Assembly: GCA_000953735.1 (NCBI GenBank)
Contig: LN554852.1
Location: 124,001 to 188,000 of the forward strand
Direction: 5' to 3'
Length of the DNA stretch: 64,000 nt
Source: Moritella viscosa
Lineage (GTDB): Bacteria; Pseudomonadota; Gammaproteobacteria; Enterobacterales; Moritellaceae
Of the stretch, positions 11,908 to 16,836 are shown piece after piece. The stretch's first letter is position 1. Each line of letters begins with the position of its first letter. Position numbers and translations under genes: made by a program. The notes below the pieces were generated by a model that was not told the origin of the DNA, did no database searches, and saw only the letters and a list, made by a program, of their open reading frames with translations.

Positions 11908-11948
11908 AATACCACATAATAAACATTGGATATATTTTATGTGGTATT
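11908..11948. terminator. 12-bp inverted repeat between ATPase gene and glutaredoxin gene
   Basis: AATACCACATAA pairs with TTATGTGGTATT across 17 bases. On the plus strand a run of T follows; on the minus strand, the direction of both flanking genes, the tail is only weakly T-rich. It probably marks the end of the metal-cluster transcript. Confidence 0.55.
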
Positions 11949-11971
11949 TATTTTTTGATAGCAATTAAGTG

Positions 11972-14032
11972 CTAGCCATTCTTTAATGCCGCGGAACGAG
12001 CAAGGATCGCGAGCGTGGTGCCGTTATGAAGTAGTGCACTCATCGCAGGGCTTAGCATTCCGAGCGCTGCTGCTAACATAATACCGCTGTTAACATATTC
12101 AGCAGCTTTGATGTTTGAATTGATCATCGACATTGCAATTTGTGCTAATTGGCGTGCTTCAGCGACACCATAAAGCGTATCTTTTAATAACACAACATCA
12201 GCGGCTTGCCTTGCTAATTCAGTGCCTTTACACATAGCAATACCTACATCCGCAGCCGTTAATGCGGGTGCATCATTGACGCCATCCCCAATAAACATCA
12301 CTGTTTTACCAGCTTGTTTAAGTTGTTCAATAATATTGGCTTTACTTTCAGGCGTGGCTTCGGCATAAACTCGATCAAGCTTAAGTTCATCTGCGAGGGT
12401 TTGAGCTTTATAAGCACGATCGCCTGAGATCATCACTAATTCTTTGATACCTAAATGACGTAACTTATTCAGTGTTTTTTCTACATCTTCACGTAAATGA
12501 TCACGTAAGCCGAGCATCCCGATTAGCTTACCTTGATGGGAAATAAACACTAAATGACGTCCTATTTCTTCAAGTTCACGAATTTGTGTTTCAAAGGGGG
12601 TGAAGTCAACATTTTCATGCACTTCAAGGAAGTGGCGGCTGCCCATTACAAGGCAATGTCCGTTGAGGGTACTTTTAAGGCCATGAGCAATGACATATTC
12701 CACCTCCCCGTGTTCGATATGCGGAAGTTTATTGTGTTTTGCTGCATTGACCACGGACTGTGATAATGGGTGATTACTGTGTTCTTCTACAGATGCTGCA
12801 ATTGCCAATAAGTCACGGGCATCGTTGTTTTGACAAAATGGCACAACATCTGTCACTTCCATGTCGCCATAAGTTAAGGTGCCGGTTTTATCAAATACGC
12901 AAGTATCGACCTTGACGATCTTCTCAATTGCACTTCCGCCTTTGAGTAAAATCCCGTTTTGTGCTGCGCGGTACATTATTGATTTAAATGTTACAGGCGT
13001 ACTTAATTTTAGTGCACAGGAATAATCGACAAGAAATACTGAGGCCACGCGATTGATATCTTGGGTTAGGGCGAATACTGCAGCACCTATTCCTAAGGTT
13101 ATTTTAACACGGCGATCTGCCATGTCTTGAGTAACTTGCTGAGTTTCACTTTTTTCGCTTAGCGAATCGTAAATTAACTGTGCTATTTTAGCCGTTGTAG
13201 CCTCACTTCCGACTTTTTCGACTCGTACTTTTATCGTGCCTTCGTATACGCTGGTGCCTGAATAAACGATAGCATCAATTTCACGCCGTACAGGTACGTT
13301 CTCACCCGTTAGAGCAGATTGATTGATAAGTGCAGCACCTGCTATAACTACGCCGTCGACAGGGATTGAGTCGCCAGGTGTAAGTTCGATAATATCATCG
13401 GCCTTAAGTTCATCTGAGTTAACTTGGATTTTGCCTGATTCGTCAATACGCCACACGACAGATTGTTGAGGATGCATGAGTTCAGCCAGTAGTTGATCAC
13501 TGTTTCGGCAGGTTTTCTGTTCCATGTACTCGCCTAAACTAATTAAGCTTTGCGTGACCATAGCTGTTTTATAGTCCCCACGCCAGACGGATAAACCGAC
13601 GGCAATTGCATCTAGAACCTCAACTGAAATACGTTTTTCTTTGATTTCATTAATGCCTTCAAAGAGCGTCGGTGCAACAAGTGTTGCGGTTGTTAAAGCG
13701 CCCCATTTATTTGGTAATAAAGCGGTTGAAAGAGTACCAATAACATTCATAGCAATATCACCACGTGTGTATTGATGCTCTATTTCAGTTTGCTCTGCTT
13801 GAGTGAAATCAAGTTGTGACAAGCGCGCTTCAAGGGTCTCTACATGCAATAATTGCGTATCATAATGGACGACGATGGAAGCCGCTGCCTGGTTGATTCG
13901 CACGTCACGAATCCCTTGAATAGCTAATAAGCTTTGTTTGATCCACTCTTCAATATCAGGAAAGTGAATCAGTGCCGCCACTTTGAAACGTATTCGCCCT
14001 GACAGGTGGTGCTTAACGACCAAGTCGATCAT
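11972..14032 (-). CDS. fezB: P1B-type metal ATPase, FezB-like
   Basis: A 686-residue heavy-metal P-type ATPase in the inner or an intracellular membrane. The N-terminus is an HMA-like domain without a CxxC pair; it starts with the basic motif HHLSGRIRFKV (8-18). Core motifs: TGEN (242-245), phosphorylation site DKTGTLT (Asp381), HP (421-422), GDGVNDAP (582-589). The ion-site motif in the transmembrane helix before the P-domain, CPC in copper and zinc pumps, reads YSC (337-339), and HNGTT lies near the C-terminus. These traits and its neighbours fit the ferrosome pump FezB (P1B-6 class); a Mn/Fe/Zn exporter of CtpC type is the alternative. It overlaps the gene before it by four bases (ATGA), so it is last in the operon. 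Confidence 0.75.
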   Translation of the reverse strand: MIDLVVKHHLSGRIRFKVAALIHFPDIEEWIKQSLLAIQGIRDVRINQAAASIVVHYDTQLLHVETLEARLSQLDFTQAEQTEIEHQYTRGDIAMNVIGTLSTALLPNKWGALTTATLVAPTLFEGINEIKEKRISVEVLDAIAVGLSVWRGDYKTAMVTQSLISLGEYMEQKTCRNSDQLLAELMHPQQSVVWRIDESGKIQVNSDELKADDIIELTPGDSIPVDGVVIAGAALINQSALTGENVPVRREIDAIVYSGTSVYEGTIKVRVEKVGSEATTAKIAQLIYDSLSEKSETQQVTQDMADRRVKITLGIGAAVFALTQDINRVASVFLVDYSCALKLSTPVTFKSIMYRAAQNGILLKGGSAIEKIVKVDTCVFDKTGTLTYGDMEVTDVVPFCQNNDARDLLAIAASVEEHSNHPLSQSVVNAAKHNKLPHIEHGEVEYVIAHGLKSTLNGHCLVMGSRHFLEVHENVDFTPFETQIRELEEIGRHLVFISHQGKLIGMLGLRDHLREDVEKTLNKLRHLGIKELVMISGDRAYKAQTLADELKLDRVYAEATPESKANIIEQLKQAGKTVMFIGDGVNDAPALTAADVGIAMCKGTELARQAADVVLLKDTLYGVAEARQLAQIAMSMINSNIKAAEYVNSGIMLAAALGMLSPAMSALLHNGTTLAILARSAALKNG

Positions 14033-14319
14033 TTTTCGCCTTTATTTAAGTTACGGTAGTAATCTAGTTCTGCTTGTGTATCTTCTAGACGTTCTTTTAA
14101 TTCTTCTACTTCACCACGTACAGCTGACCATGCCTTTTCGCCTGTTGAGCTAACACCCTGTTGGAATTTTTTATTAGATAATAAATAAGCAACTGCTGCA
14201 CCAGCTGCAAGACCCATGGCAAAGTGGGTTTTACTGTTTTGTTGCTTATAACTAGGTGCCTGTTTTATTTCACCTTGCGGATAACCGTAATATGGTGAAT
14301 AAGGTGGTTTATTATTCAT
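14029..14319 (-). CDS. Small YtxH-like membrane protein of the metal cluster
   Basis: A 96-residue protein: a Pro/Tyr/Gln-rich N-terminus, one Gly/Ala-rich transmembrane segment at about 33-48 (FAMGLAAGAAVAYLLSN), then a charged coiled-coil-like tail (about 60-96). The block GAAxAxLLSN also occurs in the Met-His repeat protein encoded upstream, suggesting a shared membrane-packing role. A good AAGGA lies before the ATG. It overlaps the ATPase start by four bases and the gene before it by eight, so translation is coupled. No exact function is known to me; such Gly-rich single-pass proteins are typical accessory proteins of bacterial metal organelles. Confidence 0.7.
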   Translation of the reverse strand: MNNKPPYSPYYGYPQGEIKQAPSYKQQNSKTHFAMGLAAGAAVAYLLSNKKFQQGVSSTGEKAWSAVRGEVEELKERLEDTQAELDYYRNLNKGEK

Positions 14320-14617
14320 GTTTTTTCCTTTCCGACATTTGATCTATCATGTATAAGCCAGCGGCGCCTACACTCAATATTGTGAGCAAAGATAATGCTG
14401 GCCGACCCGCCATATTTTCAGCTATATAGGTAGATGTTCCACTGATAGCCCCCGCCTTAATTGCCGATTTTGCAGCATTCATCGCGACATCATTGGTTGC
14501 TAATATCCCATTTTGATGATCACGCCATTGGCCAGCTAATGAAGCTCCACCGCCTGCCATTGCACCAATGAGCATCGCTCGGTGGCTTGCGCTTAATTTG
14601 TCTGATGAATTACTCAT
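14312..14617 (-). CDS. Small Gly/Ala-rich membrane protein of the metal cluster
   Basis: A 101-residue protein with two or three weakly hydrophobic, glycine-rich segments (MLIGAMAGGGASLAG near 15-29; SLLTILSVGAAGLYMI near 75-91) and a charged end (SERKKHE). I do not recognise a named family. It starts three bases after the stop of the Met-His repeat gene, lacks its own clear ribosome site, and overlaps the next gene by eight bases, so it is almost certainly translated as part of the five-gene unit 15785-11972. Confidence 0.65.
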   Translation of the reverse strand: MSNSSDKLSASHRAMLIGAMAGGGASLAGQWRDHQNGILATNDVAMNAAKSAIKAGAISGTSTYIAENMAGRPALSLLTILSVGAAGLYMIDQMSERKKHE

Positions 14618-14620
14618 AAT

Positions 14621-15454
14621 TTAACTATTAGCTTTAGGTTGTTCTTCTTGATGGCGTTCTACTGATTCTTGAAATCCTTGTTTACCAGCAGCATATGTAT
14701 CACGGAAAATTTCGCTATTTGCTGTCACGTTATCTTTTACCGATGCGGCGGTTTGTGTTGCTGTATCTTTAACGTTTGAACCACCTGATTTAAGCATATC
14801 GCCAGCGCCTGCAACTAAATCGACTAATTTACCACGTACGTTTTCGTTGCTTAGTAATAGGGCTGCTGCCGCGCCAACCATAGCGCCTTTCCAAAATTCT
14901 TTATCATTCATACCAAAGTTTCCTAATAAGTCTTTAAACATTCCAACTTCTTCACCGAGCGCGCCTTCAAGCATAGCTTGGGCTTGTTCAATGAAAGCAT
15001 TGTTTTCTTCTTGTTGCTGAGCAGGGGGGTCTTGCTGTGGGTGCATACCTGGATGCATACCTGAGTGCATACCTGAGTGCATACTTGGGTGCATACCTGG
15101 GTGCATACTTGGGTGCATACTTGGGTGCATACTTGGGTGCATACTTGGGTGCATACTTGGGTGCATACTTGGGTGCATACCTGGGTGCATACCTGGGTGC
15201 ATACCTGGGTGCATACCTGGGTGCATACCTGGGTGCATACCTGGGTGCATACCTGGGTGCATACCTGGGTGCATACCTAGGTGCATACTTGGATGCATAC
15301 TTGGGTGCATACTTGGATGCATACTTGGGTGGTTATAACCGTATACAGGCATCATGTAAGGTGAATATCCACCATTAGTCGCATAAGGATCTGATTGCTC
15401 GGTGTTCTGTGTATAAGGGATATCGTGTGAACCGTATTTAGGACCATCACTCAT
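14621..15454 (-). CDS. Met-His tandem-repeat membrane protein of the metal cluster
   Basis: About 277 residues in three parts: a Tyr/Pro/Asn-rich N-terminus (1-35); about two dozen four-residue units MHP(G/S) (about 36-140); and a C-terminal region with a Gly/Ala transmembrane segment (FWKGAMVGAAAALLLSN, about 187-203) followed by an amphipathic tail. Regularly spaced Met and His suggest many low-affinity metal sites (iron or copper); this is inference. The start is the second of two adjacent ATGs, six bases after GGAG; the first overlaps the stop of the gene upstream. The LLSN segment is shared with the 96-residue protein downstream. I know no named family covering the whole protein. Confidence 0.7.
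   Translation of the reverse strand: MSDGPKYGSHDIPYTQNTEQSDPYATNGGYSPYMMPVYGYNHPSMHPSMHPSMHPSMHLGMHPGMHPGMHPGMHPGMHPGMHPGMHPGMHPGMHPSMHPSMHPSMHPSMHPSMHPSMHPGMHPSMHSGMHSGMHPGMHPQQDPPAQQQEENNAFIEQAQAMLEGALGEEVGMFKDLLGNFGMNDKEFWKGAMVGAAAALLLSNENVRGKLVDLVAGAGDMLKSGGSNVKDTATQTAASVKDNVTANSEIFRDTYAAGKQGFQESVERHQEEQPKANS
15041..15330 (-). repeat. 12-bp tandem repeat coding for MHP(G/S)
   Basis: About 24 copies of a 12-base unit (plus strand GGGTGCATACCT or GGGTGCATACTT). There is a block of eight identical Gly-type units (about 15180-15275) and a block of six identical Ser-type units (about 15108-15179), with degenerate copies at the edges. Near-identity inside blocks indicates recent expansion by slippage or unequal exchange. 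Because the unit is a multiple of three, copy-number changes keep the frame. Confidence 0.95.
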
Positions 15455-15785
15455 CATTTACTCCATCCATCTTAAGACTTGCAGCAATATTCAAATAAGC
15501 TTGTTGCACGTCGATCTCTGATTCTGAAAACAGCTGGTTGATAAATTCTGGTTTGATGACGCCAGCATCGTATTCAACCAGAATGCTACCCGTATCGCTG
15601 TTTATTTTATAATTTTTAAACGCAGGTATATCAGCTAACGCTTGCTCAATATCAGTGACCTTTATCGTCACCAAATGGGTCATAATACCCATTTTATATT
15701 TAAGTCGGATACGTCCTGGGATGTGGTGCGCGAGCGTTAACCAACGTCTTATTTTTAAAGCTTTTTTGATTTTATCTTTCATCAT
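15447..15785 (-). CDS. HMA-like protein with basic His/Arg motif (FezC-like)
   Basis: A protein of about 112 residues: a very basic start (KDKIKKALKIRRWLTLAH) leading into HHIPGRIRLKY (20-30), then a ferredoxin-like HMA-type fold with no CxxC metal pair (DIEQALADIPAFKNYKINSDTGSILVEYD). The same motif begins the ATPase of this cluster and, in weaker form, the divergent gene at 15919. By family knowledge this Arg-rich motif with an HMA-like domain marks ferrosome proteins of the FezB/FezC kind. It is the first gene of the operon. The start is one of two adjacent ATGs (15785 or 15782) without a strong ribosome site; longer frames would need a TTG start. Confidence 0.68.
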   Translation of the reverse strand: MMKDKIKKALKIRRWLTLAHHIPGRIRLKYKMGIMTHLVTIKVTDIEQALADIPAFKNYKINSDTGSILVEYDAGVIKPEFINQLFSESEIDVQQAYLNIAASLKMDGVNDE

Positions 15786-15886
15786 AAAATTATATATAAG
15801 AAGAGAGTAGATGCGAATAGTGATCAATTGTTAATTGAATTTGATTGAGTTTTCTTTGCGCAGGGTCAACTTTGATGTTACCTTAT

Positions 15887-15901
15887 TGATAATCATTATC
15901 G
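15887..15901. promoter_or_regulatory. Fur box in the divergent promoter of the metal cluster
   Basis: TGATAATCATTATCG matches the 7-1-7 Fur consensus TGATAAT-N-ATTATCA at 13 of 14 defined positions, and the 19-base classical box at 16 of 19. It ends 18 bases before the ATG of the plus-strand gene and lies about 100 bases before the minus-strand operon, so Fur bound here could repress both when iron is plentiful. Confidence 0.8.
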
Positions 15902-15918
15902 CTTGCATTTGAGTAGTT

Positions 15919-16278
15919 ATGAACACGTATATTCACAAAACATCCCAACGATTACGCGTTAGATCCGACTATATTCGTCATCATCCAAAGGCCGTTATGG
16001 CATTGATTGAACAGTTGCAGCAAATAGATGCTATCTCGAATATTAAGCATAAATATCATGCAGGTTCAGTCGCCATTCATTTTGATCGCGAAGAGCTTGA
16101 TTGTGACAGTTTGTTAGAGATTTTAGAGACGCATGAGTGGACTAAAAGTGATGAAAAACCTTCATTTGTTGAAAACGCGGTGGTTAATGGTACAAAAACG
16201 CTAACCAAAGGTTTAGCTACAATGGCATTAAAACGTTTAGTCGGCCCCTCCGTTAGTCGTATGATTATGAGTTTTTAA
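15919..16278 (+). CDS. HMA-like small protein with basic N-terminal motif
   Basis: A 119-residue protein. The N-terminus HKTSQRLRVRSDYI resembles the HHxxGRIRxK motif of its neighbours, then a ferredoxin-like alpha/beta region (MALIEQLQQIDAISNIKHKYHAGSVAIHFDREEL) lacking a CxxC, and a C-terminal amphipathic or weakly hydrophobic stretch (TLTKGLATMALKRLVGP). It is the third protein with this motif in the cluster. It is read divergently from the operon across a Fur box and overlaps the 3' end of the convergent Cys-rich gene by 14 bases. Role unknown; a membrane-associated or scaffold protein of a ferrosome-like body is the likely reading. Confidence 0.65.
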   Translation: MNTYIHKTSQRLRVRSDYIRHHPKAVMALIEQLQQIDAISNIKHKYHAGSVAIHFDREELDCDSLLEILETHEWTKSDEKPSFVENAVVNGTKTLTKGLATMALKRLVGPSVSRMIMSF

Positions 16279-16678
16279 ATTTTTTAGCTGCACATTTACA
16301 TATTCCATTGGCTCGTGCTGGACATTTTTTACAAGCGGGTGATTTCAACGGAATACTAAGCACGGAGCGAGTTGCTGTACGTTGCTGATGTTGAGCCAGC
16401 GTTAGTATTTGGCCACTCGCGATAACGTCTTTATTGTATTCAACATGATTTGAACTTTCTTTAAACCAAGATATAACAGGTTCTAACGGTGTTTTTAATT
16501 CTGACATCATACTCGTAATGACGTCTTGCGATAAACCCTTGATCTCGTGGTGCCACTCACTGTTATTAGCTGCGGATTGACTCGTCATTTTAGATAATTT
16601 ATGTAATTGTTTTAGTGACTTTTTTTCAATCTTATTGCTTTGTTTTTTTAATTTCTTTAATGCTTTTTTTGCACTCAT
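16265..16678 (-). CDS. Lys-rich protein with C-terminal Cys cluster, unknown
   Basis: A 137-residue protein. The first 35 residues are strongly basic (KKALKKLKKQSNKIEKK), suitable for binding nucleic acid, acidic lipid or phosphate polymer. The middle is ordinary alpha-helical sequence. The end carries CKKCPARANGICKCAAKKFK: four cysteines in a CxxCPAR-NGxCxC pattern suggesting a metal or Fe-S site. I do not recognise the family. It is convergent with the small HMA-like gene, with overlapping 3' ends, and has a second, weaker Fur-like box about 50 bases before its start, so I place it in the metal cluster. Confidence 0.6.
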   Translation of the reverse strand: MSAKKALKKLKKQSNKIEKKSLKQLHKLSKMTSQSAANNSEWHHEIKGLSQDVITSMMSELKTPLEPVISWFKESSNHVEYNKDVIASGQILTLAQHQQRTATRSVLSIPLKSPACKKCPARANGICKCAAKKFKNS

Positions 16679-16726
16679 CGCTACGCCTACTTGCTGACTT
16701 TTGTATAATCTAACAAGTTATCAACT

Positions 16727-16745
16727 GCAAATAAATCTCATTCTC
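16727..16745. promoter_or_regulatory. Possible second Fur box, before the Cys-rich gene
   Basis: On the minus strand GAGAATGAGATTTATTTGC matches 13 of 19 positions of the classical Fur box. It lies about 50-67 bases before the ATG at 16678, a normal operator position. The match alone is weak, but the strong box 840 bases away in the same cluster makes it more credible. Confidence 0.4.
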
Positions 16746-16836
16746 AAATTTATATTTTTTTATGTCATTAAACATGCAATTAGTTATCTTTCTATGCCCA
16801 GAAATATTCTAGGCGTAGATATTGTATCCCTGCTGC

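Follow-up and report, generated by a model that had tools for sequence, protein, structure and literature searches.

A probable mobile, Fur-controlled ferrosome (fez) cluster with a MamC-family protein in Moritella viscosa

The gene cluster analyzed here lies at positions 11972-16678 of a 64,000-nucleotide stretch (the window) of the 5.09 Mb Moritella viscosa genome, and the closest described systems are the ferrosome (fez) clusters, which build membrane-bound iron stores. Shewanella putrefaciens reportedly carries a six-gene fez operon (attributed to Grant, 2022). Rhodopseudomonas palustris makes ferrosomes from six fez genes (PMC12016538). In Clostridioides difficile FezA and FezB are required and Fur-repressed, with FezC not among the genes named there as required (PMC12574912). 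FezC is a haem protein for which a DUF4405-like histidine pair is described (PMC10979944), and it is known from Desulfovibrio magneticus and D. indicum. The FezC cytochrome is taken as not universal in fez clusters.

We consider it likely that the M. viscosa locus is a horizontally mobile, Fur-controlled ferrosome cluster, of a subtype that contains a MamC-family protein and has no cytochrome. Like the fez clusters of R. palustris, S. putrefaciens, D. magneticus and C. difficile, it is a compact combination of a P1B ATPase with small membrane proteins, and as in C. difficile Fur repression is expected, here predicted from a Fur box. Unlike the published clusters, which were compared by description rather than by sequence, it has no FezC/DUF4405-like cytochrome that could be found, and it has a divergent HMA_2 gene, a long Met-X-Pro repeat and an extra Lys/Cys4 protein.

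The ATPase and the conserved gene set

The preliminary description of this locus, made from the letters alone, placed seven genes here, and all seven open reading frames were found (Table 1). They encode a FezB-type ATPase, two small HMA_2 proteins, two single-pass proteins, one small hydrophobic protein and one Lys/Cys-rich protein. Five of the genes form a minus-strand series (15827 to 11972) in which neighbours overlap or are separated by no more than 3 base pairs (bp), so that small membrane and HMA proteins share an operon with FezB. Three of the products had been said to share a basic motif, HHxxGRIRxK, ahead of an HMA-like fold without CxxC. The motif is complete in the ATPase (HHLSGRIRFK, residues 8-17) and in the 112-residue protein (HHIPGRIRLK, residues 20-29 when read from MMKDK) and is degenerate in the divergent protein (IHKTSQRLRVRS), where the second His, the Gly and the final Lys are all absent. 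In all three it leads into an HMA-like domain that passes the Pfam HMA_2 gathering score of 30 (51.3, 39.4 and 32.9 bits, respectively), hence the motif is beyond chance; no CxxC occurs in the HMA_2 domain of any of the three sequences.

When compared with the NCBIfam models, the ATPase passed the general heavy-metal cut-off (487 bits, cut-off 346) and did not pass that for copper (334 bits, cut-off 397). Copper, zinc and cobalt P1B pumps carry CPC, SPC or TPC as their membrane motif; in the window ATPase the SCA of VDYSCALK stands in that place. Part of this rule is given in PMC4932525. In a tree of 76 sequences built by a quick method, 55 DYSCA-type ATPases (DYSCA and close variants, counting two DYACP rows from Rhodobacter and Cereibacter) form one group with a support of 99, apart from the CPC ATPases. 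The window ATPase belongs to this group and does not fall firmly with copper, zinc or manganese exporters, while the three other P1B ATPases found in the M. viscosa genome are all of the CPC type and lie outside it. The window-type ATPases form a clade (support 100) near those of Rhodomicrobium, Rhodobacter, Cereibacter and Hahella, and are more distant from the ATPase type of Azospirillum and of three genomes referred to as G129, G178 and G469. We take the group that combines the DYSCA/SCA motif with the N-terminal basic motif to be P1B-6/FezB. The window protein resembles the copper and zinc P1B ATPases CopA and ZntA in having actuator, P and N domains, and is unlike them in its lack of CPC and of an N-terminal CxxC and in its separate tree group.

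P1B ATPases are usually exporters, and the cluster could accordingly be read as an efflux cassette for iron or another divalent metal, in which the ATPase exports across the inner membrane, the small proteins are accessory or stabilising, and no vesicle is made. The best solved relatives of the ATPase are indeed copper, cadmium and zinc ATPases, the protein passes the NCBIfam cadmium-family cut-off, and a vesicle in M. viscosa is deduced from genes. We nevertheless hold efflux to be unlikely, given that the ATPase groups away from the CPC exporters and travels with MamC-family and glycine-zipper proteins, and that Fur repression, if it holds, has the wrong sign for an iron exporter.

Of 394 genomes of the order, 14 have relatives of the ATPase at an E-value of 1e-100 or better. 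We compared 28 loci of the window type, namely the window, 26 from other genomes (L030-L040 and L143-L157) and one of Vibrio sp. THAF190c (L123); the type is present in five families of the order (f1, f5, f9, f11 and f21). The seven genes occur together and in the same order in 24 of the 28. L039 has all seven, with the Lys/Cys gene about 4 kb away and two genes between. In L037 (genome G036) the usual MamC-like gene is missing, and the only protein of this kind is a weak, diverged one encoded downstream of the ATPase. L144 has neither the divergent HMA_2 gene nor the Lys/Cys gene, and L152 is without the Lys/Cys gene. The window and the 26 loci supplied the sequences for the family profiles, and the members had initially been identified by BLAST searches with the window proteins as queries; only L123 and the distant loci are therefore independent tests.

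The distant loci come from a sample of named genomes (80 loci among those listed); many hold other ATPases, and one of the two scan patterns was a general P-type ATPase motif. Relatives of the repeat-protein core, the 96-aa (amino-acid) protein and the MamC-like protein adjoin FezB in a Hahella metagenome-assembled genome (MAG), in Rhodomicrobium udaipurense and in a Desulfarculaceae MAG. Rhodobacter capsulatus has relatives of the repeat-protein core (FW-x-G and a glycine-rich helix) and of the 96-aa protein in this position, Arcobacter and Sulfurospirillum have those of the 96-aa and MamC-like proteins, and Azospirillum has a relative of the 96-aa protein next to FezB.

The small proteins thus co-occur with FezB homologues across loci, and together with the placement of the ATPase in the DYSCA-type group this supports the ferrosome-type cluster proposed in the preliminary description. 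What found no support is the possible newness it gave to the LLSN and Met-His proteins, whose cores recur beside FezB; because such relatives are found in distant lineages, its 'new components' appear to be mostly old, yet unnamed. Its several Gly/Ala-rich single-pass proteins come down to two, the third (14312-14617) being a hydrophobic protein of the MamC type. It missed this MamC homology, and also that a FezC-type cytochrome is absent and that the block is mobile.

A MamC-family protein beside FezB

The 101-aa hydrophobic protein matches the NCBIfam model of the magnetosome protein MamC (Mms13, NF038051) at E 1.1e-7. Fourteen proteins encoded at or close to this place in the operon were scanned, and nine match the model, with E-values from 5.6e-5 to 5.6e-15; the five that do not are those of L158 (G469), L041 (G129) and Azospirillum and two from Cereibacter. 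None of the nine other fez-locus proteins with complete match lists (five from the window, four more) matches MamC, a count that leaves out the ATPase, for which the best 25 of 38 matches were available. With a single MamC-like protein as the query, matches were obtained in 11 of the 394 genomes of the order, all of them among the 14 that bear FezB. The MamC profile found 14 places in the 394 genomes, 12 at fez clusters and two weak ones elsewhere, none of them over the cut-off, and found nothing in 14 control genomes. Of 200 genomes drawn from the phylum, 13 had MamC above the cut-off, which is more than expected; these are taken for magnetotactic bacteria.

Profile-profile comparison by hhalign of 26 fez proteins (the 25 of alignment A3 and that of the Desulfarculaceae) with the 13 MamC proteins above the cut-off gave a probability of 98.8% and an E-value of 4.5e-17 (hhalign E-values are for single comparisons), with the two families aligned colinearly across 89 columns. 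For the window-type proteins by themselves the probability was 97.6% (E 3.5e-12). Among the controls, none of the families of the 96-aa, repeat, two HMA_2 and Lys/Cys proteins exceeded 0.7%; reversing the window-type alignment gave 2.1%, and none of 49 shuffles of its columns gave more than 0.8%. By profile, the 101-aa protein is a MamC homologue. In a joint tree of MamC and the fez relatives, the Rhodomicrobium and Desulfarculaceae fez rows fall with MamC on long branches, and the direction of descent is unsettled. These long branches, and the fact that both sets of proteins are short and rich in Gly and Ala, might instead suggest convergence of glycine-rich hydrophobic hairpins with no common descent. 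We regard this as improbable, as the match runs colinear through all 89 columns with the polar loop included, the five other fez-cluster families and the reversed and shuffled alignments stay at the low values given above, and the profile picks 12 fez loci and only two other places in the 394 genomes.

The fez protein differs from magnetosome MamC in falling below the equivalog cut-off, in its unconserved Asp14 and Glu18 columns and in having its gene next to FezB. The MamC-model scores are 28-36 bits at the 12 fez loci, 23-34 in single proteins and 55 in the Desulfarculaceae protein, as against 119-141 in the 13 other genomes. No FezB was found in the MamC loci of those 13 genomes; at E 1e-80 they gave ATPase matches only, all without the N-terminal HMA_2 region. 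MamC is described as abundant in the magnetosome membrane, and replacing its loop residue Asp14 with Ala removes its influence on the size of magnetite particles (PMC6206293), while deletion of MamC caused no defect in crystal size or shape (PMC3905215). The Glu18 column holds Ser or Asp in 17 of the 26 fez proteins. Both columns come from one alignment method, with which the profile alignment agrees for the window protein; a second method, hhalign with the bare 21-residue peptide, left the peptide unaligned. A role for the MamC-like protein in nucleating magnetite was rejected on account of these unconserved loop acids.

We suggest tentatively, and with slightly less than even confidence, that many proteobacterial ferrosome kits include, as a standard component, a MamC-family subunit; that magnetosome MamC was recruited from it or is its ancestor; that in the ferrosome this subunit determines the size or packing of the vesicle and does not serve as a template for magnetite, given that the magnetite-acting loop acid is not conserved; and that the window subtype dropped the FezC cytochrome and uses the Met-X-Pro and Cys4 proteins instead. 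The common family would tie together two iron organelles with different known gene sets, and the role of MamC becomes testable in non-magnetic, genetically easy bacteria. No link between MamC and fez clusters was met in the literature listings and partial texts searched; the founding ferrosome papers lie outside that scope and may hold an earlier mention, and priority for the link is unproven.

Cytochrome, Fur sites and mobility

In the Azospirillum, G129, G178 and G469 type, the C-terminal segment of the first HMA-like protein contains a conserved His pair and shows a weak, sub-threshold similarity to DUF4405. A model of this FezC type (A4) was searched in 30 FezB-bearing genomes and gave a full match only in G469, G129 and G178. 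In genome G163 the cytochrome part alone is present, as a separate small gene (L036:4516-4749) adjoining the Lys/Cys gene; this FezC-like gene is unique among the searched window-type genomes and is either a remnant or a late gain. In the remaining 26 genomes, M. viscosa included, A4 matched only HMA parts, except for one stop-bearing translation in G036 (E 0.0024). Because this leaves 26 of the 27 searched window-type genomes without a FezC-type cytochrome, the window subtype may work differently, and it has to handle iron redox chemistry with no help from the known ferrosome cytochrome.

The six-gene operons of Azospirillum brasilense, G129/G178 and G469 are like the window in having two HMA_2-like proteins, small membrane proteins, a relative of the 96-aa protein and FezB; the A. 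brasilense row (NZ_CP059451) is annotated as HMA2, cation transporter, two hypothetical proteins, YtxH and P-type ATPase. They are unlike it in the weakly DUF4405-like His-pair segment of the first HMA-like gene, in the proteins tried at the MamC position, which gave no MamC match, and in their FezB, which is only about 38-41% identical.

The cluster could also be exactly the published S. putrefaciens six-gene fez operon plus one neighbour, which is compatible with the ferrosome reading and would make it nothing new beyond another member. Without the Lys/Cys gene it does have six genes, and in genus g5, which we guess to be Shewanella, a window-type ATPase is present in 11 of the 12 FezB-bearing genomes, two of them with an incomplete set. 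However, the published set is reported to be a six-gene operon, and the window has five genes running one way and the sixth opposite, whereas in G469, also of g5, all six genes point in one direction and a FezC-like cytochrome is among them. We see identity with the published operon as possible, though on balance rather doubtful.

Fur sites were scored over the 19 positions of the Fur consensus. The Fur box in the divergent intergenic region is the best site in a plus-strand scan of the 64 kb. Within the central 300 bp of each divergent region, the best site scores at least 14/19 in 12 of 25 loci, and this score was reached in none of 25 control stretches downstream of FezB and in 33 of 1306 tiles. 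Upstream of the Lys/Cys gene the best score is 12/19 in the window and at least 14 in six of 24 loci, a hint that this gene may be co-regulated by Fur. The 'Fur boxes' of the preliminary description therefore include one strong site (16/19), the plural being less sure given the 12/19 upstream of the Lys/Cys gene in the window. By sequence, the cluster is predicted to be iron-regulated through Fur.

The cluster is found in three of 11 genomes of the genus, and in all eight sister genomes that do not have it the flanking genes, judged from sequence to be glutaredoxin-like and old-yellow-enzyme-like, are adjacent. Window positions 11938-16763 are also present, at 86% nucleotide identity, in G466, which belongs to a different family (f5). 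The ATPases of the two are 97% identical and their guanylate kinases 62%, while guanylate kinase is 92-96% identical in four genomes of the window's genus; furthermore, the G466 ATPase nests in the tree among those of this genus. From these comparisons the block is judged to be horizontally mobile. Since the divergent HMA_2 gene and the Lys/Cys gene lie within this common block, both are supported as parts of the unit. The locus would be a candidate organelle cassette that is compact, moves naturally and has a clearly defined set of genes.

In the proposed mechanism, low iron would lift Fur from the divergent promoter, and the two glycine-zipper single-pass proteins together with the MamC-family protein would coat and shape an inner-membrane vesicle, into which FezB would pump ferrous iron. 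The HMA_2 domains with the His/Arg motif, in FezB and the two small proteins, may be a common docking or anion/iron-handling module, and the Lys/Cys4 protein could act as a soluble accessory factor, possibly as a chaperone for iron or zinc.

Several points weigh against the ferrosome reading. The FezC-type cytochrome was not found in 26 of the 27 window-type genomes searched, and at three of the 28 window-type loci the set of seven genes is incomplete at its usual place. The ATPase passes the cadmium-family cut-off too (363 versus 313.5 bits), and the assignment to FezB rests on motif and synteny rather than on comparison with a proven FezB sequence. The Fur score is only 12-13 in 13 of the 25 loci, including all three of f21 and seven of the eight of genus g28, although in two of these weak loci (L034 and L147) a site scoring 15 lies just beyond the scanned stretch. 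The MamC-model scores of the fez proteins (23-55 bits) are far under the equivalog cut-off of 100, and the column of MamC loop residue Asp14 holds Asp in only five of the 26 fez proteins. Finally, that vesicles form in M. viscosa, that iron is the cargo, the direction of pumping and the steps given to the small proteins are all inferred from the genes.

Gene list, the repeat and Lys/Cys-rich proteins and minor observations

Table 1. Features of the fez-type cluster, in window coordinates.
Feature	Position	Strand	Remarks
FezB-type P1B ATPase, 686 aa	11972..14032	-	N-terminal HMA_2 with HHxxGRIRxK; VDYSCALK replaces CPC/SPC/TPC; DKTGT; C-terminal HNGTT
96-aa single-pass protein	14029..14319	-	LLSN glycine-rich helix and charged helix; 4-bp overlap with FezB
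101-aa MamC-family membrane protein, hydrophobic	14312..14617	-	NCBIfam MamC E 1.1e-7; profile-profile match
278-aa repeat protein	14621..15457	-	Met-His-Pro repeat region, then DKEFWKG and glycine-rich LLSN helix
12-bp tandem repeat, 24.5 copies	15038..15331		encodes MHP[S/G]
Small HMA_2 protein, 112 residues	15447..15827	-	first of five-gene run; probable start 15785 or 15782; 11-bp overlap with next gene
Fur box CTTATTGATAATCATTATC	15882..15900		divergent intergenic region; 16/19 positions
Divergent small HMA_2 protein	15919..16278	+	degenerate basic motif; C-terminal part without FezC-type His pair
137-aa Lys/Cys-rich protein	16265..16678	-	P-x2-P-x2-SW core; C-terminal CxxCPA-G-CxCA-K; convergent and overlapping with divergent HMA_2 gene
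Mobile unit	11938..16763		block common to other-family genome, 86% nucleotide identity

The repeat protein contains 21 MHP units in the window and five and 16 in two relatives from the genus; relatives differ both in the number of copies and in the residue at X of MxP. His makes up 4-16% of the repeat region in 26 of the 27 copies examined. The nearest cross-family copy, that of G466, has 1% His and reads Met-Gln/Tyr-Pro, which makes it doubtful that His is an indispensable ligand of the repeat. The Desulfarculaceae MAG protein also has a Met/His/Pro repeat. The glycine-rich helix of the repeat protein is related to that of the 96-aa protein (92.7% by profile), and the 96-aa protein itself has a weak, below-cut-off likeness to YtxH. 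On the plus strand, two long open reading frames antisense to the 12-bp repeat (15037-15378 and 15077-15280) encode GAYL and HTWV repeats; they look like by-products of the repeat and not genes.

In three fez operons, of Arcobacter (L126:4336-5019), a gammaproteobacterial MAG (L055:4883-5629) and Pseudothauera (L045:5103-5879), a ferritin-like protein is encoded at the place of the repeat protein. One of the three was scanned and showed a weak Pfam DUF2202/rubrerythrin match, its record being annotated DUF2202; the other two were judged by eye from their similar sequence. These proteins are possibly a soluble iron-oxidising partner of ferrosomes. The idea that the repeat protein is a domain-swapped ferritin-like protein was rejected, as profile comparison shows no homology between the C-terminal segments (15.8%) and only the operon position is common.

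The Lys/Cys protein has four invariant Cys (C-x2-C and C-x-C) and an invariant SW in 23 rows. Full-length matches were found in 12 of the 394 genomes, all at fez loci, whereas weaker ones occur in 16 further genomes (in 12 of these the tail region only) and as second copies in three fez-bearing genomes. The protein, one of the possible new components of the preliminary description, is thus not wholly fez-specific: the Cys4 tail occurs elsewhere, and only the full-length form is restricted, within the 394 genomes, to fez loci of the window type. Six of the non-fez places were inspected (L159:3936-4208, L160:3993-4355, L161:3805-4164, L162:4004-4504, L163:3934-4275 and L164:3978-4493), and each encodes a small Lys-rich protein with a C-terminal CxxCPA-G-CxCA tail.

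The diverged MamC-like protein of G036 (L037:6486-6863) groups with the Arcobacter/Sulfurospirillum kind. On plasmid pORIO2 of Cereibacter azotoformans (L125), which is typed as conjugative, a FezB-type cluster is flanked by TonB-dependent receptors, an FeoA gene and a sigma-70/FecR pair, and has the appearance of an iron island on a transferable plasmid.

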